Positions 4,535 through 32,871 of a stretch of 36,253 nt of DNA are shown in pieces. Position numbers and translations under genes: made by a program. The stretch spans positions 5,088 to 41,340 of the forward strand of contig JAHDWG010000007.1 in the NCBI GenBank assembly GCA_023384495.1, written 5' to 3'. The notes under the pieces were generated by a model. It saw only the letters and a list, made by a program, of their open reading frames with translations. It was not told the DNA's origin and ran no database searches. Positions within the stretch are counted from its first letter, which is position 1. Every line of letters begins with the position of its first letter. The DNA is from Caldilineaceae bacterium. GTDB taxonomy: Bacteria; Chloroflexota; Anaerolineae; Caldilineales; Caldilineaceae.

Positions 4535-4640
4535 CTGTCACCGGATTTGGGGAACTGATTGAACGGATTGCTCTCTCCTTGAGCCGCTCTTGCACGAATG
4601 GTGTGGTGGAGCGGATTTCGCTCAATCCATCCTCAGAATC
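4535..4640 (-). repeat. ~106-bp dispersed repeat element, copy 1 (upstream of actA)
   Basis: Read on the minus strand, this begins GATTCTGAG, then GGATTGAGCG, ATCCGCTCC, and near its end AATCCGTTCAATC, GTTCCC, AAATCCG and TGACAG. The same blocks in the same order form copy 2 at 8427-8543 in the opposite orientation. In the 35-bp right-hand block 32 positions agree. The middle differs in length and sequence. The copy occupies most of the gap between the phosphotriesterase gene and actA. Confidence 0.75.
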
Positions 4641-4695
4641 TGTTGTCAACTCACTAGGCAACGAACACACTACACTACATCGCAAAGGCCAACCT

Positions 4696-5352
4696 GTGTC
4701 CCAAGTTTTCCCGCGCAGGATGAACATGATTGTCACGCTTACGCTCGTGACGCTTGTTCTCATCGTAGGTGGGGTGGCCGCGTTCGGATACTATGTCGTA
4801 CGTTCGCCGTTGATGACCGGCGTCGGCGTGGCGAGAACGCAACCGGTGCCGTTTAGCCACCAGCAACATGTGGGCGGGCTGGGGCTAGACTGTCGCTATT
4901 GTCATACGGCGGTGGAGGTGAGCAACACGGCCAACATCCCGCCCACTGCGACCTGTATGGGGTGCCATGCCCAGGTTGCCCCCGACGCCCCCACATTGGA
5001 ACTGGTGCGCGCCAGCTTTGCCGAGAACCAGCCGCTCGAGTGGATCCGTGTCCACAGCCTGCCCGACTTTGTCTATTTTAATCACGCCATCCATGTCCGC
5101 CAGGGGATTGGCTGCGAAAGCTGTCATGGCCGGGTGGATCAGATGCCGGTAGTTGGCAAGGTCGAGAGCCTGTCCATGGCCTGGTGCCTGGATTGCCACC
5201 GTGCGCCGGAGAACCATGTGCGGCCACGCGATGCGGTCTTTGTCATGGGGTGGGAGCCGCCCGCTGACCAGGCCGCGCTGGGGCCACAGTTGGTGGCTGA
5301 ACATGGCATTCAGGTCGCCGGCTTGGCGGATTGTTCGGTCTGTCACCGCTGA
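4696..5352 (+). CDS. actA: ACIII subunit ActA, pentaheme cytochrome c
   Basis: This 218-aa protein has an N-terminal membrane anchor (residues 11-34) followed by five CXXCH heme c motifs at 66-70, 87-91, 140-144, 164-168 and 213-217, the count known for ActA of alternative complex III. It relays electrons on the outer face of the membrane from the complex to a cytochrome or oxidase. I chose the GTG at 4696 because the family N-terminus (MSQVFPRRMN) begins there and AAGG lies upstream. The longer frame from 4579 runs through repeat copy 1 and has no family similarity. It is the first gene of the act operon, and actB follows after 97 nt. Confidence 0.93.
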   Translation: MSQVFPRRMNMIVTLTLVTLVLIVGGVAAFGYYVVRSPLMTGVGVARTQPVPFSHQQHVGGLGLDCRYCHTAVEVSNTANIPPTATCMGCHAQVAPDAPTLELVRASFAENQPLEWIRVHSLPDFVYFNHAIHVRQGIGCESCHGRVDQMPVVGKVESLSMAWCLDCHRAPENHVRPRDAVFVMGWEPPADQAALGPQLVAEHGIQVAGLADCSVCHR

Positions 5353-5449
5353 TGCATGAATGATGTAATGGGTGAGTTGATGGTTGGTTACACATCACGG
5401 AGCGCAGTCAAAACGCTAGACATAGCCCGCACATTTTGTGGATGGTTCG

Positions 5450-8434
5450 ATGAGCACTACCCCACTTGACATAGCAACTATTCAAGAGAAGTTGGCTGCC
5501 ACCAGCGGCCGCGACTATTGGCGTAGCCTGGAAGAATTAGCAGAGACCGAAGTCTTCCAGGAATTCCTCCAGCGCGAATTTCCCCGCCAGGCCTCAGAGT
5601 GGGCGCCCGGCATGAGCCGCCGCCATTTTCTCAAGCTCATGGGGGCGTCGCTGGGGCTGGCCGGGCTGGCAGGCTGTACAAGCCGCCCCCGCGAAACCAT
5701 CGTCCCTTACGTGCGGATGCCCGAAGAGACGATTCCCGGTCAACCGTTATTTTTTGCTACTGCCATGCAGGTGGGTGGTTATGCGCTGGGGTTGCTGGCG
5801 CAGAGCCACCTCAACCGCCCTACCAAACTGGAAGGAAACCCCGACCACCCCGCCAGCCTGGGTGCGACGGATGCCCTGGCGCAAGCGTCGATCTTGACGC
5901 TCTACGACCCCGACCGCTCAACCACCGTAACGCAGGCGGGCGCGGCCAGCGAATGGGAGGCGTTTCTTGCTGCGCTGCAACCGCACCTGGCAGGGCAACG
6001 GGCCGGCGGCGGGGCCGGGTTGCGCATCCTAACAGAGACAGTCACCTCACCCACCCTGTTCGACCAGCTCCAGACGGTCTTGAGCGAGTTTCCCAACGCC
6101 GCCTGGCATCAATACGAACCGGTCAATCGCGACAACGTCTATGCCGGGGCGCAACTGGTCTTTGGCGAAGCAGCCGAGCCGGTCTACCGGCTGGACCGGG
6201 CCGAGGTGATCATCTGCCTGGACGCCGACCTCTTCCAAACATCGCCCGGTCGTGTGCGCTATGCCCGTGACTTTGCCGACGGACGCCGGGCCGGGGCGCC
6301 GGCAGAGCGCAACCGCAACCGGCTCTACGCGATCGAAAGCACGCCGACCATCACCGGTGCGGCGGCGGATCACCGTCTGCCGCTCAAGGCCAGCCAGATT
6401 GAAACCTTCACCCGCCTGCTGGCCCAAGAGTTAGGATTGGCGGTGGCGGGCGCGCCAGCCGACCCTGCCATCCCCGCCCAGTGGGTAAGTGCGGTCGCCC
6501 AAGATCTGCAAGCGCACGGTGGAGCCGGCCTTGTCATCGCCGGTGATGGGCAACCGCCGGTGGTCCATGCGCTGGTTCATGCTATCAATGAGGCATTGGG
6601 CAACGCCGGCCAAACAGTGGTCTACACCGAACCCGTGGTGGCGAATCCCATGAATCAGACCGAATCGCTGCGCGAGTTGGTTGTGGCAATGGCGGCGGGT
6701 CAGGTTGAGGTGCTGCTGATCTTGGGTGGCAATCCAGTGTACAATGCGCCGGTCGATCTTGATTTTGGCGCTGTGTTGGAACAGGTTAGCTTTAGCGTCC
6801 ACCTGGGTCTTTACGCCGATGAGACCGCCGTGCGGTGTGACTGGCACATCCCCGAATCGCACTATCTGGAAGCATGGGGCGATGGACGAGCGTATGATGG
6901 AACGGTCACGATCCAGCAGCCGCTGATCGAACCGCTCTACGCCAGCCGCTCGGCCCCTGAACTGCTGGATGCCCTGCTCGCCGAAGAGCCCCGTTTGGAC
7001 CACGAGATCGTGCGCGGCTACTGGGCCGACCGCCAGCCGGGAGCGGACTTTCTCCAAATTTGGCAGCGATCTCTGCACGATGGCATCGTAGCTGACACTG
7101 CGTTTCCCCCCAAAGCAGTCACGGTGCAGGCCGAGGGCCTCGACCAGCAACCATCAGCAGCGACCGCTGAAGGGTTGGAAGTCTACTTCCGCCCTGACCC
7201 GACCGTTTGGGATGGCCGTTTCGCCAACAACGGCTGGCTGCAAGAGCTGCCCAAACCACTAACCAAGCTCACTTGGGAAAACGCCGCGCTCATCAATCCG
7301 CTCACCGCCGATTCCCTGGGGCTAGCGCAGGGCGATTTGGTCGAGTTGACGTACGGCGGACAAACCGTCCAGGCCCCCCTCTGGCTGCTGCCCGGCCATG
7401 CTGAGGGGGCGATCACGCTGCACCTGGGCTATGGGCGCGCCCAGAGTGGACGGGTGGGCGAAGGGGCCGGTTTTAACGCGTATGCTCTCCGCACGGCAGA
7501 TGCGCCCTGGTTTGTCGCGGGGGTAACAGTTCGCAGGGTAGGTGCGGGCTATCAATTTGCCAGCACGCAAAATCATCACAGCATGGAAGGGCGCAACCTG
7601 GTGCGCGTGGGAACGGTGGCGCAGTTTGCGGACGACCCCGAATTTGTCCAGGCCATGAATCCGCACCACCCGGCGATCTCGCTCTACCCCAAGTTTGAGT
7701 ACAACGAGAATGCCTGGGGCATGGCAGTCGATCTGACAGCGTGCATCGGCTGCAACGCCTGTGTGACCGCCTGCCAGGCCGAGAACAACATCCCTATTGT
7801 GGGCAAGGAAGAGGTCGCCAAAGGTCGCGAGATGCACTGGATCCGCATCGACACCTATTTTGAAGGCGACCTCGCCAACCCCGCCACACATCACCAGCCG
7901 GTGATGTGTATGCACTGCGAGAACGCCCCCTGTGAGGTGGTCTGCCCGGTGGCGGCGACCATGCACGACGCCGAAGGGCTCAACACGATGGTCTATAACC
8001 GCTGCATCGGCACGCGCTATTGTTCCAACAACTGTCCGTACAAGGTGCGGCGCTTTAATTTTTTGGAGTATGTGGATTTCGACTCCGAGGTCCTCAAACT
8101 CCAACGCAACCCCAATGTCACCGTGCGCGCCCGTGGGGTGATGGAGAAATGCACCTACTGCACCCAACGGATCAACACGGCGCGCATCACCGCCAAGCTG
8201 GAAGGCCGGCCCATCGCGGACGGCGAGGTCGTCACCGCCTGCCAGGCCGCCTGCCCAACCGGCGCCATCATTTTTGGCAACATCAACGACCCGGAGAGCC
8301 AGGTGGCGCAGCGCAAGGCGTCACCGCTCAACTATGGGCTGCTGACGGAACTCAACACGAACCCGCGCACGACCTATCTGGCCAGGTTGCGCAATCGGAA
8401 TCCGGCGTTGGAGGAGGCTGTCAACGGATTCTGA
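5450..8434 (+). CDS. actB: ACIII subunit ActB, TAT-exported Fe-S protein
   Basis: At 994 aa this matches full-length ActB. A twin-arginine signal (SRRHFLK, residues 56-62) precedes a hydrophobic stretch ending in Cys76. The long middle part resembles the molybdopterin-oxidoreductase fold, which in ActB proteins holds no Mo cofactor. The C-terminal ferredoxin-like domain has four cysteine clusters, beginning at residues 765 (CIGCNACVTAC), 820 (CMHCENAPCEVVC), 852 (CIGTRYCSNNC) and 901 (CTYC, completed by CQAAC). These match the three 4Fe-4S and one 3Fe-4S centres of the family. The ATG at 5450 is preferred over an in-frame GTG at 5438. The last two codons and the stop lie inside repeat copy 2, so the repeat provides the terminus. 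Confidence 0.95.
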   Translation: MSTTPLDIATIQEKLAATSGRDYWRSLEELAETEVFQEFLQREFPRQASEWAPGMSRRHFLKLMGASLGLAGLAGCTSRPRETIVPYVRMPEETIPGQPLFFATAMQVGGYALGLLAQSHLNRPTKLEGNPDHPASLGATDALAQASILTLYDPDRSTTVTQAGAASEWEAFLAALQPHLAGQRAGGGAGLRILTETVTSPTLFDQLQTVLSEFPNAAWHQYEPVNRDNVYAGAQLVFGEAAEPVYRLDRAEVIICLDADLFQTSPGRVRYARDFADGRRAGAPAERNRNRLYAIESTPTITGAAADHRLPLKASQIETFTRLLAQELGLAVAGAPADPAIPAQWVSAVAQDLQAHGGAGLVIAGDGQPPVVHALVHAINEALGNAGQTVVYTEPVVANPMNQTESLRELVVAMAAGQVEVLLILGGNPVYNAPVDLDFGAVLEQVSFSVHLGLYADETAVRCDWHIPESHYLEAWGDGRAYDGTVTIQQPLIEPLYASRSAPELLDALLAEEPRLDHEIVRGYWADRQPGADFLQIWQRSLHDGIVADTAFPPKAVTVQAEGLDQQPSAATAEGLEVYFRPDPTVWDGRFANNGWLQELPKPLTKLTWENAALINPLTADSLGLAQGDLVELTYGGQTVQAPLWLLPGHAEGAITLHLGYGRAQSGRVGEGAGFNAYALRTADAPWFVAGVTVRRVGAGYQFASTQNHHSMEGRNLVRVGTVAQFADDPEFVQAMNPHHPAISLYPKFEYNENAWGMAVDLTACIGCNACVTACQAENNIPIVGKEEVAKGREMHWIRIDTYFEGDLANPATHHQPVMCMHCENAPCEVVCPVAATMHDAEGLNTMVYNRCIGTRYCSNNCPYKVRRFNFLEYVDFDSEVLKLQRNPNVTVRARGVMEKCTYCTQRINTARITAKLEGRPIADGEVVTACQAACPTGAIIFGNINDPESQVAQRKASPLNYGLLTELNTNPRTTYLARLRNRNPALEEAVNGF

Positions 8435-8543
8435 GAGCGGATTGAGCGGAGGGTACGCCGCGCCATCCGCTCCTGGATAACTCGATTGGAACAGATTTCG
8501 TAGCACCGAATCCGTTCAATCCGTTCCCAAAATCCGCTGACAG
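8427..8543 (+). repeat. ~117-bp dispersed repeat element, copy 2 (actB end to actC leader)
   Basis: This carries the same ordered blocks as copy 1 (4535-4640) but in opposite orientation: GATTCTGAG, GGATTGAGCG, ATCCGCTCC, then AATCCGTTCAATC, GTTCCC, AAATCCG and TGACAG. Within it 8435-8450 and 8511-8526 can pair over all 16 positions (two of them G-U) with a 60-nt loop. The actB stop codon is the TGA of its first block. Confidence 0.75.
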
Positions 8544-8572
8544 TACTCTGCTACACCAATCAATACTCTTGG

Positions 8573-10525
8573 ATGCCAGCCATGCAAGAACCAGGCACTC
8601 TCATCGGGCCGGGCCATAATCTGCGGTCCATCACCGAAAAGATCAGCAACACCGTCTTGACCCGGGTGACGCCGCTCCCGTGGTTGATTGGGTTTGCGCT
8701 GGGCTTTGTCCTGCTCATGCTCTTCCTCTATGCCGTCAGCGTCCTCTTTCTGCGGGGCGTGGGCATCTGGGGCATCAACCAGCCGGTGGGGTGGGGGTAT
8801 GACATTGTCAACCTGGTCTGGTGGATTGGCATCGGCCATGCGGGAACGCTGATCTCGGCGATCCTGCTGCTCTTTCGCCAGCAATGGCGCACCTCGATCA
8901 ACCGCTTTGCCGAGGCGATGACGCTCTTTGCCGTCTCGTGTGCAGCGCTCTTTCCGCTCTTACATTTGGGGCGGCCCTGGCTGGCCTATTGGATCTTCCC
9001 CTATCCCAACACCTTTGGGCTGTGGCCGCAGTTTCGCAGCCCGCTGGTGTGGGATGCCTTCGCCATCGGCACCTACGCCACCGTCTCGCTGCTCTTTTGG
9101 TATATCGGGCTAATCCCCGACCTGGCGTCCATGCGCGATCGGGCGGGCAATCGCTGGGTGCGCTATCTGTATGGGCTGTTGGCGCTGGGGTGGCGCGGCG
9201 CGGCCCACCACTGGCAACGCTATGACACCGCCTATCTGCTGCTGGCGGCGCTGGCGACGCCGCTAGTGGTGTCGGTGCATTCGGTGGTCAGTTTTGACTT
9301 TGCCGTCTCGGTTATTCCGGGCTGGCATGCGACCGTCTTTCCGCCCTATTTTGTGGCCGGCGCGATCTTTTCGGGCTTTGCCATGGTGTTGACGCTCCTG
9401 ATCCCGCTACGCAAGATCTACCGGCTCGAAGATTTTATCACCGCCCGCCACCTGGACAACATGGCGAAAGTGATGCTGGCCACCGGCCTCTTTGTGACCT
9501 ACGGCTATCTGACCGAAGCCTTTACCGCCTGGTATTCGGGCAGTGGCGTAGAGCGCTTCTGGCTCTTCAATCGCTCGTTTGGCCCCTACTGGTGGGCCTT
9601 CTGGCTGTTGATGCTCTGCAACGTTGCCGTGCCCCAGGCACTCTGGTTGGGAGGCGTGCGCTCCAGCCCGCTCTGGCTGTTTCTCATTGCGCTGGTGGTC
9701 AACGTGGGAATGTGGCTGGAGCGCTACGTCATCATCGTGGTCAGCCTGCACCGCGACTATCTGCCCTCGTCGTGGGGCATGTACGCCGGCACCTTCTGGG
9801 ATCGGCTGACCTTTGTGGGGACGATTGGGTTGTTCCTGACCTTGATCTTCTTGTTTGTGCGCATCCTGCCCATGATCTCCATGTTCGAGATGCGCCATCT
9901 ATGGGCCGAGACCCACAAGCACGATGAGCCGGAACCGGCCGACGCCGAGGCGGCATCCACAGCCCCGGCGACAGCGCAACCAGCCAGCGCCCCAACTGCG
10001 CCGCTCTATGGTCTCATGGCCGAGTTTGGCGATGGGGAGGAGCTGCTGGCAAAAGCGCGCCAGACCTATCAGGCCGGCTACCGCAGGATTTCCGCCTATA
10101 GCCCCTTTCCCATTGCCGAACTGCCGGCGGCGATTGGGTTGCGGCCAACCCGGCTGCCCTATCTGGTGCTGTTGGGTGGCATCGTGGGAGCTATGGGCGG
10201 ATTTGCGCTCCAATATTACGCATCCGTCATCGACTACCCGTGGAACATTGGCGGGCGACCGCTCAACAGTTGGCCGTCGTTTATCATTGTCACCTTTGAG
10301 TTGACGATCCTGTGTGCGGCGGGGGCGGCGGCGCTGGGCATGTTGTTGCGCAATGGGCTGCCGCGCCCGTATCACGCCGTCTTCAATGCACCACGCTTCA
10401 AGCTGGCTTCGCAGGATCGCTTTTTCTTGTGTATCGAGGCGAATGATCCGAGGTTTGACCTGGTGGGGACGCGGCAATTTTTGGAGGGATTAGGACCGGT
10501 GGGAGTGGTGGCGGTGGAACAATAG
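8573..10525 (+). CDS. ACIII fused subunits ActC (NrfD-like) and ActD (DUF3341)
   Basis: This 650-aa polypeptide joins two subunits. Residues about 1-440 are ActC, an NrfD/PsrC-like integral membrane protein with about ten helices that forms part of the quinol site and proton path. Recognisable segments include [18 protein letters not shown] and [19 protein letters not shown]. Residues about 442-470 are a Pro/Ala/Glu linker. The rest is ActD (DUF3341), starting [19 protein letters not shown], containing SPFPI and two membrane helices. In the characterised complexes I know of, ActC and ActD are separate chains. The frame is open across the junction with no internal ribosome site evident, so the fusion looks genuine. 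The start at 8573 has a weak ribosome site, and 8582 is the alternative. Confidence 0.92.
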
Positions 10526-10544
10526 ATCCGAATCGGAGTTATCA

Positions 10545-10967
10545 ATGGCCGAACTCAAGACCAAACCGACCGATCAAAGCGTCGAGGAATTCCTCAACAA
10601 CATCCCCGATGAAAAACGCCGCCAGGAGTGTCGCACTGTCGCCCAGTTGATGCAGGCGGCAACCGGCGCGGAACCCAAGCTGTGGGGCAGCAGCATGGTC
10701 GGTTTTGGCTCCTATCACTACAAATACGCCAGCGGACACGAGGGCGACGCCTTCTTGACCGGCTTCTCGCCCCGCAAGCAGAACTTGACGCTCTACATCA
10801 TGGCCGGCTTTGAGCACTATGACGAGCTCATGCAGAAGCTGGGCAAGTATAAGACGGGCAAATCGTGCCTCTATATCAAGAAGCTCGACGACGTTGATCT
10901 AGAGACGCTCGAATCGCTGATCCGCCGATCGGTCGAACAGATGGTCAAGACGAACGACGTCCAATGA
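10545..10967 (+). CDS. DUF1801 (YdhG-like) protein inside the act operon
   Basis: This small soluble protein of 140 aa belongs to the DUF1801/YdhG-like family. The conserved core is seen in WGSSMVGFGSYHYKYASGHEGDAFLTGFSPRKQNLTLY, and the C-terminal helix-rich part contains GKSCLYIKKL. The biochemical role of the family is not established. GGAG lies 8 nt before the ATG. It starts 19 nt after actCD, and its stop overlaps the actE start as ATGA, so translation of the two genes is probably coupled. The insertion of such a gene between membrane-complex subunits is odd. It may be an accessory or assembly factor, or simply a passenger. Confidence 0.85.
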   Translation: MAELKTKPTDQSVEEFLNNIPDEKRRQECRTVAQLMQAATGAEPKLWGSSMVGFGSYHYKYASGHEGDAFLTGFSPRKQNLTLYIMAGFEHYDELMQKLGKYKTGKSCLYIKKLDDVDLETLESLIRRSVEQMVKTNDVQ

Positions 10968-11557
10968 TGCCGCTTACTGTACGCCAGGCGCTTGCGCTCA
11001 TCGGTTTAATCATTTGCGTGAGCGTTCTTGCCGCTTGCACGCTCGACATGCGCGAGCAGCCCCGCTACGACCCGTTAGAGCCGAGCGCCTTCTTTGCCGA
11101 CGGCGCATCCGCCCGCCCGCGCGTGGCGGACACGGTGGCGCGCGGGCAGCTTCGTTTGGACGATCATCTCTACACCGGGCGCATCGACAACCGCTTTGCC
11201 CAGACCTTTCCCTTTACGGTGACGCTGCAAACCCTGGCGCGCGGGCGCGAACGCTATGATATTTTCTGCGGCCCCTGTCACGGGCTGGCGGGGAATGGCG
11301 ACGGCGTCATGATCGACTACGGGATGCGAGCGCCCAACTCATTCCACGACCCCGATGTAGCCGCCCAGCCGCCCGGTTACTATTTTGCCATCATCAGCAA
11401 TGGGACGCGCATTATGCCCGATTATGCGGCGCGCATTTCCCCCGAGGATCGCTGGGCGATTGTGGCCTATATTCGCGCGCTGCAATTGAGCCAGCATGTG
11501 GATGTGTCGCAGTTGTCGTCGGAAGACCTGGCGGCGTTGGAAGAGACTGGCAATTGA
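10964..11557 (+). CDS. actE: ACIII subunit ActE, monoheme cytochrome c lipoprotein
   Basis: This 197-aa protein has a lipoprotein signal with lipobox LAAC and lipid-modified Cys25. One cytochrome c domain follows, with heme motif CGPCH at 102-106 and the likely axial Met151 in RIMPDYA. The helix SPEDRWAIVAYIRALQ near the C-terminus is typical of class I cytochromes and ActE. ActE carries electrons between ActA and outer acceptors. The gene overlaps the DUF1801 gene by 4 nt (ATGA). Confidence 0.93.
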   Translation: MMPLTVRQALALIGLIICVSVLAACTLDMREQPRYDPLEPSAFFADGASARPRVADTVARGQLRLDDHLYTGRIDNRFAQTFPFTVTLQTLARGRERYDIFCGPCHGLAGNGDGVMIDYGMRAPNSFHDPDVAAQPPGYYFAIISNGTRIMPDYAARISPEDRWAIVAYIRALQLSQHVDVSQLSSEDLAALEETGN

Positions 11558-11576
11558 GCCCGCAAGGAAAAAAGTA

Positions 11577-12053
11577 ATGGAAGTCAAGCATTTCTCCGAA
11601 ATCGAAGCTGAATTTATCGAGCGCGTCCACACCATGGTCTGGTGTAACGCGGCCACCGTCGACAGCCGGCAGCGCCCGCGTTCGCGCATCCTCCACCCGA
11701 TCTGGGAGGGTTCAACCGGCTGGGTCGGCACCCACCGTAACTCGTACAAGAGCAGGCGCCTGGAACGGAATCCGCATATTTCGCTGGCCTATATTACTGA
11801 CATCATGAAGCCGGTCTATGTGGACTGCACCGCCGAATGGGTCGATGACCTCGAACAAAAGGTGCGCATCTGGAACCTCTTCAAAGATGCGCCACCACCC
11901 CTGGGTTATGATCCTGCGCCCACCTTCGGCAGCGCCGACCATGAGGATTTTGGCCTGCTCAAGCTAACACCCTGGCGCATCGCAATTGTGACCTTCCCGG
12001 CGCCCTCGCATGAGGAAGGGCAACGTATCTGGCGCCGGCGGGAGGAGGGTTGA
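11577..12053 (+). CDS. Pyridoxamine 5'-phosphate oxidase-like (split-barrel flavin-binding) protein
   Basis: This 158-aa cytosolic protein of the FMN-binding split-barrel superfamily has the usual order: an N-terminal helix, MVWCNAATVDSRQRPRSRILHPIW (first strands), SRRLERNPHISLAY (cofactor-phosphate region), and a C-terminal TPWRIAIVTF strand. I chose the ATG at 11577, which has AAGGA upstream; the longer frame overlaps actE. Family members bind FMN or F420 and reduce or sense small molecules, so the exact function is open. Its stop overlaps the actF start by one base, and the two are almost certainly translated together. This is not a normal part of an ACIII operon. Confidence 0.85.
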   Translation: MEVKHFSEIEAEFIERVHTMVWCNAATVDSRQRPRSRILHPIWEGSTGWVGTHRNSYKSRRLERNPHISLAYITDIMKPVYVDCTAEWVDDLEQKVRIWNLFKDAPPPLGYDPAPTFGSADHEDFGLLKLTPWRIAIVTFPAPSHEEGQRIWRRREEG

Positions 12054-13225
12054 TGGAGATTAGCCGTCTGCGACGACCAGCCCTTGGGGTTACTCTGGTT
12101 GGCCTGGTGCTCGCCATCGTGGGCGCAGTGCTAAACCTGGAACAGTTCTGGCGTTCGTATCTGCTCGCCTACGTCTTTTGGTGGCACATCGCGCTGGGCT
12201 GTCTGGGATTGGTGATGTTGCACCACCTGGTGGGTGGGCGCTGGAGCGCAATGGTTCGCCGCTTGCTCGAAACTGGCGCGATGACCTTACCGCTGCTGGC
12301 GCTGCTCTTTGTTCCGCTCCTCGCTGGCTTGACCACCCTTTACCCGTGGACCATCCCGGACGTGGTCGCGCACAGCGAACTACTGCAAAACAAGACACCC
12401 TACTTGAATCTGCCCTTTTTCCTGGCGCGGACCGCGCTCTATTTTGTCGTCTGGATCACCCTCGCCTATCTCCTCAACCGCTGGTCGCTCGAACAGGACC
12501 AGACCGCCGACCCCCGCCTGGCGACGCGTATGCGCCGGTTGAGCGCCGCAGGGATGATCCTCTACATGGTCACCGCCACTTTTGCCGCCTATGATTGGCT
12601 GATGTCGCTGGAACCGGAGTGGTTTTCGTCGATCTACGGGCTGATCATCATCGCCGGGCAGGGTTTGGCCGCGCTGGCGCTGGCGATTGTCGGGTTGCGG
12701 CTGATTTCGGCCAATGTTCAGACCAACACAGAACACGCTGGCTGGACCCAATCATTCAACGACCTGGGCAATTTTTTGCTCGGTTTTGTGATGATCTGGG
12801 CCTATCTCTCCTTTTCACAGTTTCTGATTATCTGGTCCGCCAACATCCCGGAGGAGGCGGTCTGGTACTATCACCGCAGCCAGGGCGGATGGCTTGAGGT
12901 GGGCATGATCCTGGTGGCGAGCCATTTTGTGTTGCCCTTTTTTCTGCTCTTGTCGCGGCGGGTCAAACGGCGGGCGCAGTGGTTGACGGTGCTGGCCGCG
13001 CTGATCTTGTTGACTCGTTGGATCGATCTCTATTGGCTGACCATGCCGGCCTTTTACCCGCAGGGGGTGCATCTCCACTGGCTTGACATCGCCCTGCTAC
13101 TAGGGATGGGGGGTGGCTGGTTTGCCTTCTATCTCTTCCAGTGGCATGGCAAAGCCCCGCTGCCGCAACACGACCCCCACTTGGGAGAACAACATGACCG
13201 ACACGACGAGCTCGCCCCCGCCTGA
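12053..13225 (+). CDS. actF: ACIII subunit ActF, NrfD-like membrane protein
   Basis: This 390-aa polytopic membrane protein has about ten hydrophobic helices, a paralogue-like partner of ActC within ACIII. Family segments include TPYLNLPFFLARTALYF, ATFAAYDWLMSLEPEWFSSIYGL, FLLGFVMIWAYLSFSQFLIIWSANIPEE and MPAFYPQGVHLHWLDI, all characteristic of ActF. Together with ActC it surrounds the quinol and proton-pathway region of the complex. The ATG at 12053 has a strong GGAGGAGG site. The 3' end overlaps the following cytochrome gene by 32 nt. Confidence 0.94.
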   Translation: MEISRLRRPALGVTLVGLVLAIVGAVLNLEQFWRSYLLAYVFWWHIALGCLGLVMLHHLVGGRWSAMVRRLLETGAMTLPLLALLFVPLLAGLTTLYPWTIPDVVAHSELLQNKTPYLNLPFFLARTALYFVVWITLAYLLNRWSLEQDQTADPRLATRMRRLSAAGMILYMVTATFAAYDWLMSLEPEWFSSIYGLIIIAGQGLAALALAIVGLRLISANVQTNTEHAGWTQSFNDLGNFLLGFVMIWAYLSFSQFLIIWSANIPEEAVWYYHRSQGGWLEVGMILVASHFVLPFFLLLSRRVKRRAQWLTVLAALILLTRWIDLYWLTMPAFYPQGVHLHWLDIALLLGMGGGWFAFYLFQWHGKAPLPQHDPHLGEQHDRHDELAPA

Positions 13226-13955
13226 GCGAGCAGCGCCGACCCGCCGGGCGAGAGGACGTGGCTTGGGCTGTCTGCTGGTGGCGGTGGTGCTGCTGGTGGG
13301 GGGTGTCGTGGCGGCCGTGCTCTGGTTCCCGCGCCTGGTGGACCAGCTTGCCATGCAGGCAGGTGCTACGCCACTGTTATTGGCCGAGCATTCGTCCGCT
13401 GCGGAGGCTGCGGCGCGCCGCAGCCAGGAACGCGCCCAGCTTGCAAGCTTTGGCTGGGTGGATCAGGCGGCCGGCATCGCGCACATTCCCATTACCCGCG
13501 CCCTGGCGCTGGTCGCCGAACAGGGCTTGCCGGTAGCTGGGGCGCCTACAGACGCCAACCCGGTCGAGGAAGAGCTCATGCTTGACCCAGACATGGCGCA
13601 ATTCCTGGTTGAGTCGGGCGTTGGCGCAACGGATGTACTCACACAAGCGGATCAGCAGCCGACAGTCGACCTGGACAATGTCACCTACCAGGAACATGTA
13701 TTGCCGATCTTCGAGCGTCATTGCGCCGAATGCCACGGCGCCGACGACCCGGAAGAAGGGCTGGAGCTGACCCGCTACCGCACCGCCATCAACGGTTCGA
13801 TCCACGGGCCGGTCATCGTGCCAGGCGACCCCGACAACAGCTATCTGGTCGAGCAGATCGTCAGCGGGCAGATGCCAAAACGGGGCGAGCCGCTCTCACC
13901 CGCCGAAATCGAAATCGTCATTGCCTGGATCGCGGCCGGCGCGCCGGAGGAATAG
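13194..13955 (+). CDS. Membrane-anchored monoheme cytochrome c ending the act operon
   Basis: This 253-aa protein has a single N-terminal membrane helix (residues about 24-45). A segment FGWVDQAAGIAHIPITRAL (86-104) follows, of the kind seen in short proteins of respiratory oxidase/ACIII clusters. A cytochrome c domain with CAECH at 177-181, a VPGDPDNSYLVEQI block and a candidate Met ligand in GQMPKRGEPLS completes it, ending IAWIAAGAPEE. GGGAG precedes the chosen ATG, which lies inside the end of actF, so it is part of the operon. It may be the electron acceptor of ACIII or link it to a terminal oxidase; no oxidase genes are in this window. Confidence 0.88.
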   Translation: MTDTTSSPPPERAAPTRRARGRGLGCLLVAVVLLVGGVVAAVLWFPRLVDQLAMQAGATPLLLAEHSSAAEAAARRSQERAQLASFGWVDQAAGIAHIPITRALALVAEQGLPVAGAPTDANPVEEELMLDPDMAQFLVESGVGATDVLTQADQQPTVDLDNVTYQEHVLPIFERHCAECHGADDPEEGLELTRYRTAINGSIHGPVIVPGDPDNSYLVEQIVSGQMPKRGEPLSPAEIEIVIAWIAAGAPEE

Positions 13956-15482: not shown

Positions 15483-16619
15483 CTAGCGCGTGCTGCTCAC
15501 GGCGGGGATGCTCTTCAGGTAGGCGGCAATCGCGAGCGCGTCTTCTTCGGTCAGCCGGCTGAAGCGGCGTTCGATCTGCTGCGCCATCGCGCCCACCGTC
15601 AAACTGCCGTCGGGGAACTCGCCGGTGCGCATGAAGTTGGCGATCTCTTCTTCGCTCCAACGCCCGATACCGGTCTCGTCATCCGGGGTGATGTTGGCGG
15701 CATAATCATCGCTGTTGGGCACCATCGCGCCAGCCAGGTACATCTCCATATTGGGGCTGCCATCCTCGTTGGTGGGCGTGTGGCAGGCGCCGCAACGGGC
15801 AATGGTGACCAGCATCTCGCCGCGCGCAACCGGGTCGGTGTGGGGTTCTGCCGGCGGGGCGACGGCTGGGGTGAACGCCGCCGGCTCATTTGCGAGATCG
15901 CGCTCGGACACTTCGTTGGCCACTGGCTCAAGTGAGAGTAGATAGGCGGCTACATCGAGCGCCTCTTGGTCCGAAAGGACGCTAAAGGCGCGGTAGGGCA
16001 TGATGGGGTGGAGTTGCGTTCCATCTGGGCGGACGCCAAGTTGCAGTGCAGCGGCGATCTCTTCCGCACTCCAACTGCCGATACCGGTTTCCTCGTCGGG
16101 CGTGATGTTGCGGGCAAAGACTTCACCAAACGGCCCTTCGAAGCGGTTGCCGCCGGCCATGGCGCCCAGATCGCGGTTGAAGTGACAGCCACAGCCGCCA
16201 GTGAGCACGGCAATGTATTCGCCATACGCCGCAGCGTCCGACATCGCGGCCTCTCCGGAATCGGCCTCTTCTTCAGCCGCAGGTGTGCCAGTCGCCTCGG
16301 GCTCCTCTTCGGCCACCGGGGTGCCCGTCGCGGCCGGTTCTTCTTCAGCCGCAGGCGTGCCAGTGACCTCGGGCTCCTCTTCAGCCGCCGGGGTCTCCGT
16401 GGCGACTGGTTCTTCTTCGGCTTCCGGCGTCTCCGTGGCAGCCGGTTCTTCTGCGGCCACAGGCGTATCGGTGGGGGCCGGCGCCTCCGTGGGCGCCGGT
16501 TCGGCTGCCGGCGGCGTCGACTGGCAGGCTACTAAGAGCAAACCCGCCAACAACATCAGGCCGGCTACCCAGAGCGGACGTGTCCACATACGTTGCCGCG
16601 TAACGCTTGATGAGGTCAT
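15483..16619 (-). CDS. Diheme cytochrome c lipoprotein with acidic repeat linker
   Basis: The protein is 378 aa. A lipoprotein signal ends in LVAC (Cys32), then a Pro/Ala/Thr/Glu linker with five near-identical 12-residue repeats (about 62-118), then two homologous cytochrome c domains. Both domains contain NITPD(E/D)ETGIG and a downstream helix ALxxAAYLxS. The second has canonical CGACH (276-280) and candidate Met345. The first has GGCGCH at 141-146, which is C-X-C-H, one residue shorter than CXXCH, with candidate Met207. The domains resemble cytochrome subunits of membrane alcohol or aldehyde dehydrogenases. It is anchored outside the membrane and likely shuttles electrons. The ATG at 16619 has AGGAGGG upstream. 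It is divergent from the YceI lipoprotein gene. Confidence 0.9.
   Translation of the reverse strand: MTSSSVTRQRMWTRPLWVAGLMLLAGLLLVACQSTPPAAEPAPTEAPAPTDTPVAAEEPAATETPEAEEEPVATETPAAEEEPEVTGTPAAEEEPAATGTPVAEEEPEATGTPAAEEEADSGEAAMSDAAAYGEYIAVLTGGCGCHFNRDLGAMAGGNRFEGPFGEVFARNITPDEETGIGSWSAEEIAAALQLGVRPDGTQLHPIMPYRAFSVLSDQEALDVAAYLLSLEPVANEVSERDLANEPAAFTPAVAPPAEPHTDPVARGEMLVTIARCGACHTPTNEDGSPNMEMYLAGAMVPNSDDYAANITPDDETGIGRWSEEEIANFMRTGEFPDGSLTVGAMAQQIERRFSRLTEEDALAIAAYLKSIPAVSSTR
16266..16436 (-). repeat. 36-bp tandem coding repeat (acidic linker)
   Basis: About five copies of a 36-bp unit encode the 12-residue pattern T(E/G)TP(A/V/E)AEEEP(E/V/A)(A/V) between the lipobox and the first heme domain of the diheme cytochrome. 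The unit copies differ by a few codons. Copy number changes would alter linker length without breaking the frame. Confidence 0.75.
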
Positions 16620-16755
16620 ATACACTCCCTCCTGCACTTGACTGATTGGGTCGATGGTTTGCGAAGTCTACAAACAAGGCGTGGGTCAATACGTAAACGT
16701 TGTACTCGATTGGTTTGGATTGGCGGCCTCTTGTTTCTTGTACATTTGCATCGCT

Positions 16756-16917: not shown

Positions 16918-17712
16918 ATGACTCGACAAGCTTTCCGTCTTTGGGGCCTGCTGTTCGTAGCATTTGTGGTGATTGGGTTGGCTGCATGTGGCTCGCCCGC
17001 CGCGACGCCGGCTGACGACTCCAGCGCACAGCCGCAACCGACGCCGACCGCTGCCCCTGCCGCCGCGCCGGCTGAAACCCCGGTGGAAACCACCGAAGCG
17101 CTGGCGGACGTGGAGCCAGCGCCCCAAGCAGAAGCTACCATTGCCCCCGCCGAAGAGATGGTGGCTGCCGAGCCGCTTGTGTTTGCCATCGACGCTGACC
17201 GTTCTGAGGCGCGCTTCTACATTGATGAAGTCTTACGCGGCGCACCCTTCACAGTGGTGGGCGTCACCAGCCTGGTGAATGGCTCGATTACCGCCAATCC
17301 CGCCGATCTAAGCCAGGCGTCGATCAGCACCATCCAGATCGACGCCAGCAGCCTTACCACCGATTCGGGCATGCGCAACAACGCCATTCGCCGTTTTGTT
17401 TTGCAGTCGGCGAACCAGGCCTATCAATATATCACCTTTGAGCCGACGGCAATCGAGGGGTTGCCGTCCCGCGCAGAACCGGGCGACCAATTCTCGTTTA
17501 CGATTACCGGCGACCTCAAGATTCGTGATATTAGCCAACCTGTCACCTTTGCGGTGAATGCAATCGCGGACTCGGCGTCGCAGATCAGCGGGCTGGCGAC
17601 GACCACCGTTACCCGCGCCGCATACCAATTGACCATCCCCAGCGTCCCCAGTGTGGCGGATGTGTCGGACGAAGTGAAACTTGAACTGGAGTTTGTGGCC
17701 GTCGCGCCCTAG
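16918..17712 (+). CDS. YceI-family lipoprotein
   Basis: This 264-aa protein has a lipobox GLAAC (Cys24) and a Pro/Ala/Thr/Glu spacer (about 25-85). A C-terminal YceI domain follows (about 90-264): FAIDADRSEARFYIDEVLRGAPFTVVGVT, SGMRNNAIRRFVLQSANQAYQYITFEP, and FTITGDLKIRDISQPVTFAVNA. YceI domains form a lipocalin-like barrel that binds isoprenoid/quinone-type lipids outside the cytoplasmic membrane. Here it would be lipid-anchored next to the respiratory cytochromes, fitting a quinone- or isoprenoid-related role, which is inference. AAGGA precedes the ATG at 16918. Confidence 0.9.
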   Translation: MTRQAFRLWGLLFVAFVVIGLAACGSPAATPADDSSAQPQPTPTAAPAAAPAETPVETTEALADVEPAPQAEATIAPAEEMVAAEPLVFAIDADRSEARFYIDEVLRGAPFTVVGVTSLVNGSITANPADLSQASISTIQIDASSLTTDSGMRNNAIRRFVLQSANQAYQYITFEPTAIEGLPSRAEPGDQFSFTITGDLKIRDISQPVTFAVNAIADSASQISGLATTTVTRAAYQLTIPSVPSVADVSDEVKLELEFVAVAP

Positions 17713-22435: not shown

Positions 22436-22505
22436 GACGATAGACGATGGACGATAGACGATGGACGATAGACGATAGACGATGGACGATAGACGATGGA
22501 CGATA
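22436..22505. repeat. Heptamer tandem repeat (10 units) before the adaptor gene
   Basis: Ten consecutive 7-bp units of GACGATA or GACGATG fill 22436-22505. The unit pattern is A G A G A A G A G A by last base. The repeat begins 7 nt after the permease stop and ends 48 nt before the adaptor ATG. Similar heptamer arrays are scattered between genes in some bacteria and are noncoding. Confidence 0.9.
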
Positions 22506-22553
22506 GGTGGTGGTTCTCGTCCATGGTCTGACCAATAAGCAGGAGTACACTGG

Positions 22554-26114: not shown

Positions 26115-26162
26115 TTTGATACTGTGTTTGATACTGTGTTTGATACTGTGTTTGATACTGCG
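26115..26162. repeat. 12-bp tandem repeat (4 units) abutting the glycosyltransferase start
   Basis: Four units of TTTGATACTGTG (the last ends in TGCG) occupy 26115-26162, and the ATG of the glycosyltransferase gene follows directly. No ribosome-binding purine stretch is present between repeat and start. Confidence 0.9.
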
Positions 26163-32825: not shown

Positions 32826-32835
32826 ACGATTGTTT

Positions 32836-32871
32836 CCTTGGATGATTCCTTGGATGATTCCTTGGATGATT
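32836..32871. repeat. 12-bp tandem repeat (3 units) before the fmdB-like gene
   Basis: Three units of CCTTGGATGATT (read on the plus strand) occupy 32836-32871. On the minus strand each unit contains CCAAGG, and the copy nearest the gene gives AAGGAA 8-9 nt before the ATG at 32825, so the repeat supplies the ribosome-binding site. Confidence 0.85.

Follow-up and report, generated by a model that had tools for sequence, protein, structure and literature searches.

Heme c motifs contracted to CXCH are reportedly present in many prokaryotes, and mitochondrial cytochromes of Euglenozoa carry A/FxxCH motifs with the heme held by one thioether. A contracted CKCH motif in the tetraheme cytochrome Kuste2854 of Kuenenia stuttgartiensis was reported as a functional heme site (Ferousi et al. 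2019, as cited in PMC7096707 and PMC8388095). Among annotation pipelines, at least one already includes CXCH when heme motifs are counted (PMC11218250). As to heme maturation, one review states that altered cysteine spacing in System I led to an extra sulfur between cysteine and heme (a persulfide), and calls this product aberrant (PMC3601427). Given this precedent, ordinary heme attachment would not be assured at a contracted motif, and the bond chemistry of such a heme is a real question.

Here, we analysed a 36,253-nucleotide stretch of DNA from a Caldilineaceae bacterium (contig JAHDWG010000007.1), hereafter the window. It encodes a class I diheme cytochrome lipoprotein whose first domain carries a CGCH motif. 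As in Kuste2854 according to the papers citing it, a single residue separates the two heme cysteines and the histidine directly follows the second one. The two proteins differ in other respects. Kuste2854 is described there as soluble, with four hemes and hydrazine synthase as its partner in electron exchange, whereas the window protein is a class I two-domain lipoprotein encoded beside Alternative Complex III (ACIII). Moreover, unlike in Kuste2854, the residue between the cysteines is small in the window family (Gly, Ser or Thr), an invariant glycine precedes the motif and the hosts possess System I. The Kuenenia CKCH site thus makes the contracted heme motif a known kind, of which the class I form seen here, present in System I hosts and conserved in several phyla, is a variant. 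We found no description in the open-licence literature of a class I diheme CXCH form that System I hosts of several phyla share.

A diheme cytochrome with a CGCH site

The features of the locus are collected in Table 1. The frame of the diheme cytochrome is unbroken from the ATG at 16619 to the stop at 15483. AGGAGG is found upstream at 16628-16633 and the lipobox reads LLVAC. Direct reading of the minus strand gives TGT GGC TGT CAC, that is Cys-Gly-Cys-His, for the motif of domain 1. The remainder of this domain (NITPD, PIMPY and the C-terminal helix) is intact. CXXCH occurs in domain 2 only, as CGACH, and no third heme domain follows, giving two heme motifs per protein. An earlier note on this DNA had described the two motifs and the intact remainder of domain 1 in the same way, and its description and coordinates are exact.

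Table 1 Features of the diheme cytochrome gene and of its neighbourhood in the window
Feature	Position	Strand	Evidence
ACIII operon: ActA, ActB, fused ActC-ActD, ActE, PNPOx-like gene, ActF	4579..13222	+	ActD PF11821, NrfD, Fer4 and cytochrome matches
Monoheme cytochrome PSCyt1 beside the ACIII operon	13191..13955	+	Pfam PF07635; adjoins the CXCH gene in L037-L044
Diheme c-type cytochrome lipoprotein, 378 aa	15483..16619	-	Open frame, AGGAGG, lipobox, Pfam PF00034 x2, 15 same-family orthologues
Canonical heme c motif CGACH, domain 2	15780..15794	-	Direct reading; CxxCHTP invariant in 16/16
PIMPY Met-Pro, with the presumed axial Met of heme 1	15996..16001	-	Invariant M88-P89; role as ligand deduced from the topology of class I cytochromes c
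Contracted heme c motif CGCH, domain 1	16182..16193	-	Direct reading; 16/16 orthologues; GC[GST]CH in 33/33
Gly codon at His-4 (place of the first Cys in CXXCH relatives)	16194..16196	-	Alignment columns
Low-complexity Pro/Glu/Thr linker from lipobox to domain 1, ~36-bp tandem units	16250..16520 (limits approximate)	-	TRF rows 16261-16466
YceI-like lipoprotein, divergent neighbour	16918..17712	+	Pfam PF04264

The Pfam family Cytochrom_C (PF00034) matches two stretches of the protein (E 7.8e-11). A search of NCBIfam with the same protein gave no match. The AlphaFold2 model has a mean pLDDT of 90 and a pTM of 0.86. Among solved structures, the best matches are the triheme cytochrome subunits of the alcohol (ADH) and fructose (FDH) dehydrogenases of Gluconobacter, with Z ~20 (for 8gy2_B, Z 20.4, 249 residues, 3.8 A), and hmmsearch against 7w2j_C gives an E-value of 2e-54. 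Domains 1 and 2 align with these subunits (7w2j_C, 8jej_C, 8gy2_B) over ~245 residues at ~35% identity. However, the Gluconobacter proteins have three heme motifs where the window protein has two, and CXXCH at the site aligned with CGCH. Furthermore, the window gene has no adjacent dehydrogenase gene. Because the window protein stops after domain 2, a triheme FDH/ADH dehydrogenase subunit proper is ruled out. With CXXCH in domain 2 only, the diheme cytochrome is a homologue of the class I FDH/ADH-subunit-like family in which one heme site is variant. The same two-domain architecture, with CXXCH in domain 1, is seen in alphaproteobacterial diheme cytochromes, including that of Sneathiella (L054, L063, L082).

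By themselves, the four letters C-x-C-H are weak evidence, because a six-frame translation of the window (72,502 codons) contains them six times. Conservation at the same aligned position, in the family and in the whole CXCH group, lifts CGCH above chance. In the 46 genomes of the host family that were searched, 15 orthologues were found, making 16 sequences with the window's own. All 15, at 44-69% identity, have GCGCH in domain 1 and CxxCHTP in domain 2. Invariant columns of the 16-sequence alignment (A2) include G23, C24, G25, C26, H27, M88 and P89 in domain 1 and C157, C160, H161 and M226 in domain 2. The contracted motif is conserved in a cytochrome domain. The earlier note had proposed such an alignment and had regarded close homologues with CXXCH at this site as the sign of a local deletion or error. 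None of the 15 orthologues is of this kind, and the claim of a CGCH motif stands. A local deletion or a sequencing or assembly error is in practice refuted by independent genomes, since the same motif is found in seven other genera of the family and in other phyla. The uninterrupted frame also agrees with the absence of a frameshift, from which the earlier note had argued against a simple sequencing slip.

Anatomy and distribution of the motif

The genomes of 84,980 species were then scanned and gave 80 loci, with two patterns of which one held GCGCHFN, which biases it towards the short form in the nearest relatives, and the other was neutral. The records are mostly metagenome-assembled, so that an individual taxon label may be in error; the resulting distribution depends on no single record. 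Domain 1 carries CGCH, CTCH or CSCH in Caldilineaceae and other Chloroflexota, in Binatota, Nitrospinota and Myxococcota, and in one Pseudomonadota record. CXXCH is the form in all other relatives, which are Pseudomonadota for the most part, with some Chloroflexota. In all 33 proteins of the CXCH group, which spans several phyla, GC[G/S/T]CH stands in the same register. A Binatota-wide search added one further member only (L139), also with GCGCH. In a tree of 84 proteins from which the motif columns were left out, the CXCH/CXXCH label needs two changes (mean of 26 when labels are shuffled). One change is enough when a long-branch CXXCH group is omitted. On the full tree of 84 rows, placing all CXCH rows on one side of a branch is rejected (AU p 0.006). 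The number of switches between the two forms is one or two.

Position His-4 is Gly and position His-3 is Cys in 33/33 CXCH rows; His-4 is Cys in 51/51 CXXCH rows. The residue X of CXCH is one of Gly, Ser and Thr. Counted from the helix glycine, the histidine lies at a distance of 13 in every CXCH row and in 49 of the 51 CXXCH rows. Because this distance is equal in both groups, the cysteine is relocated from His-4 to His-3, with Gly in its place and without net change in length. A one-residue loop deletion is ruled out by the same distance.

Only synonymous codon variation is observed at the Gly, both Cys and the His of the domain 1 motif. Mean column identity is 0.70 in domain 1 and 0.72 in domain 2. 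In six close pairs, Ka/Ks ranges from 0.07 to 0.23 for domain 1 and from 0.03 to 0.12 for domain 2, and two of the pairs show a clearly higher value for domain 1. Purifying selection acts on both domains to a similar degree. These data bear on the idea that heme 1 was lost, so that CGCH would be a relic, a disulfide site or a site for another metal. The departure from CXXCH is in keeping with such a loss, but we regard it as very unlikely because both Cys, the His and the Met-Pro are invariant in the family, the codons vary only synonymously and Ka/Ks in domain 1 is low and near that of domain 2. In addition, the cytochrome fold is fully conserved and the CXCH form persists across phyla. Conservation of the motif and of the domain, synonymous-only codon changes and the unchanged length make both heme loss and sequencing error unlikely. 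The sequence evidence makes it very probable that CGCH works as a heme site and is neither an error nor the trace of a lost heme.

The column of the presumed axial methionine is more variable in the wider group. It is Met in 26/33 CXCH proteins and Phe in 7/33, all Phe cases being outside the Caldilineaceae clade. In two CXCH proteins with Phe at this position (L075, L079), the next candidate Met is Leu.

Heme attachment

The window genome encodes one CcmE and one CcmF, the same Ccm set as in family members without the diheme gene. ResB was sought in this genome and none was found; it was also absent from all of 14 further carriers, most of them from other phyla or classes. CcmF was found in 12 of these 14, as a single copy in most. 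The single CcmF and the lack of ResB speak against a dedicated maturation of the NrfA type with an extra CcmF/NrfE-type paralogue. The earlier note had offered a choice between a heme attached differently, by one thioether or a special maturation route, and a lost heme. A heme that is still attached is the better supported of the two; the Ccm set gives no support to a special route, and the invariant residues and the selection acting on domain 1 disfavour the loss.

It is likely, as judged from sequence, that domain 1 is a functional class I domain with covalent heme on GCGCH attached by ordinary System I, and that the lipoprotein is an electron carrier, probably from ACIII. The heme of domain 1 would be covalently bound by the host's usual Ccm machinery, with the motif His as proximal ligand and the Met of PIMPY probably as sixth ligand. 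The lipoprotein would pass electrons through its two hemes outside the cytoplasm, taking them probably from the neighbouring ACIII. The data themselves show the conservation of the motif and the selection on it, the predicted fold, the gene neighbourhood and the presence of System I genes without System II. From these we infer the heme occupancy, the number and type of thioether bonds, the axial Met and the redox partner of the diheme cytochrome. A broader proposal has about even chances: a natural family that crosses phyla, in which GC[G/S/T]CH receives its heme from general System I, through two thioethers on the relocated cysteine or through a built-in persulfide bridge.

A working heme site could also be held by a single thioether, from the Cys next to the His, the His-3 Cys being free or having another role. 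With Gly at His-4 throughout, the usual first cysteine is indeed absent relative to CXXCH. We nevertheless find this unlikely: the His-3 Cys is invariant across phyla while its neighbour X varies, a pattern that suits a bonded cysteine more than an extracytoplasmic free thiol. A persulfide as the natural state, the additional sulfur bridging the short spacing, is less probable still and has little chance of being correct. No system other than System I was found in the host, and the review cites such a product for altered cysteine spacing, but terms it aberrant (PMC3601427).

Gene neighbourhood and significance

The CXCH gene lies tail-to-tail with ACIII genes in L037-L042 and L044; in L043, only the cytochrome is seen before the contig ends. 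YceI homologues also adjoin the CXCH gene in L045, L047 and L049. Among the 46 genomes, ActD is found in 10/16 carriers vs 4/30 non-carriers (Fisher p 0.0016, relatedness ignored). ActD was not seen in the other 6/16 carriers, and in at least one of these (G024, L039) ActF adjoins the gene and the contig ends. ActF was named from position and sequence alone and has no Pfam match. In the window, ActC (NrfD) and ActD are fused into one 650-aa protein (8573-10525, +). A PNPOx-like gene (PF01243, E 2.9e-7) is unexpectedly inserted between ActE and ActF (11496-12053, +). Elsewhere in the window, perfect or near-perfect short tandem repeats are found at 22436-22506 (7 bp x 10.1), 26115-26160 (12 bp x 3.8) and 32834-32871 (12 bp x 3.2).

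Adjacency to ACIII is limited to one clade. A cytochrome c'-like gene takes this place in the members from Binatota and Nitrospinota and in most of those from Myxococcota; the label is based on PF01322, matched by both members that were scanned (L056 and L057). The alphaproteobacterial L054 and L063 resemble these CXCH members in this respect. A gene of the cytochrome c' cluster adjoins the diheme gene in CXCH and CXXCH loci alike (L055-L062, L071, L074, L079, L054, L063, L067, L088). Because the gene adjoins the ACIII operon, the neighbourhood suggests an electron-carrier role for ACIII as the best inference in the window's clade.

Both the counting of hemes and the annotation of cytochromes depend on CXXCH, and the present class I lineage consistently departs from it. 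If the broader proposal is true, System I would handle a second cysteine spacing in nature. The family offers natural substrates, together with closely related CXXCH controls, for the study of System I target recognition and of the bond made at a one-residue cysteine spacing. For Alternative Complex III in Caldilineaceae, the diheme lipoprotein is a specific candidate for the role of electron acceptor.
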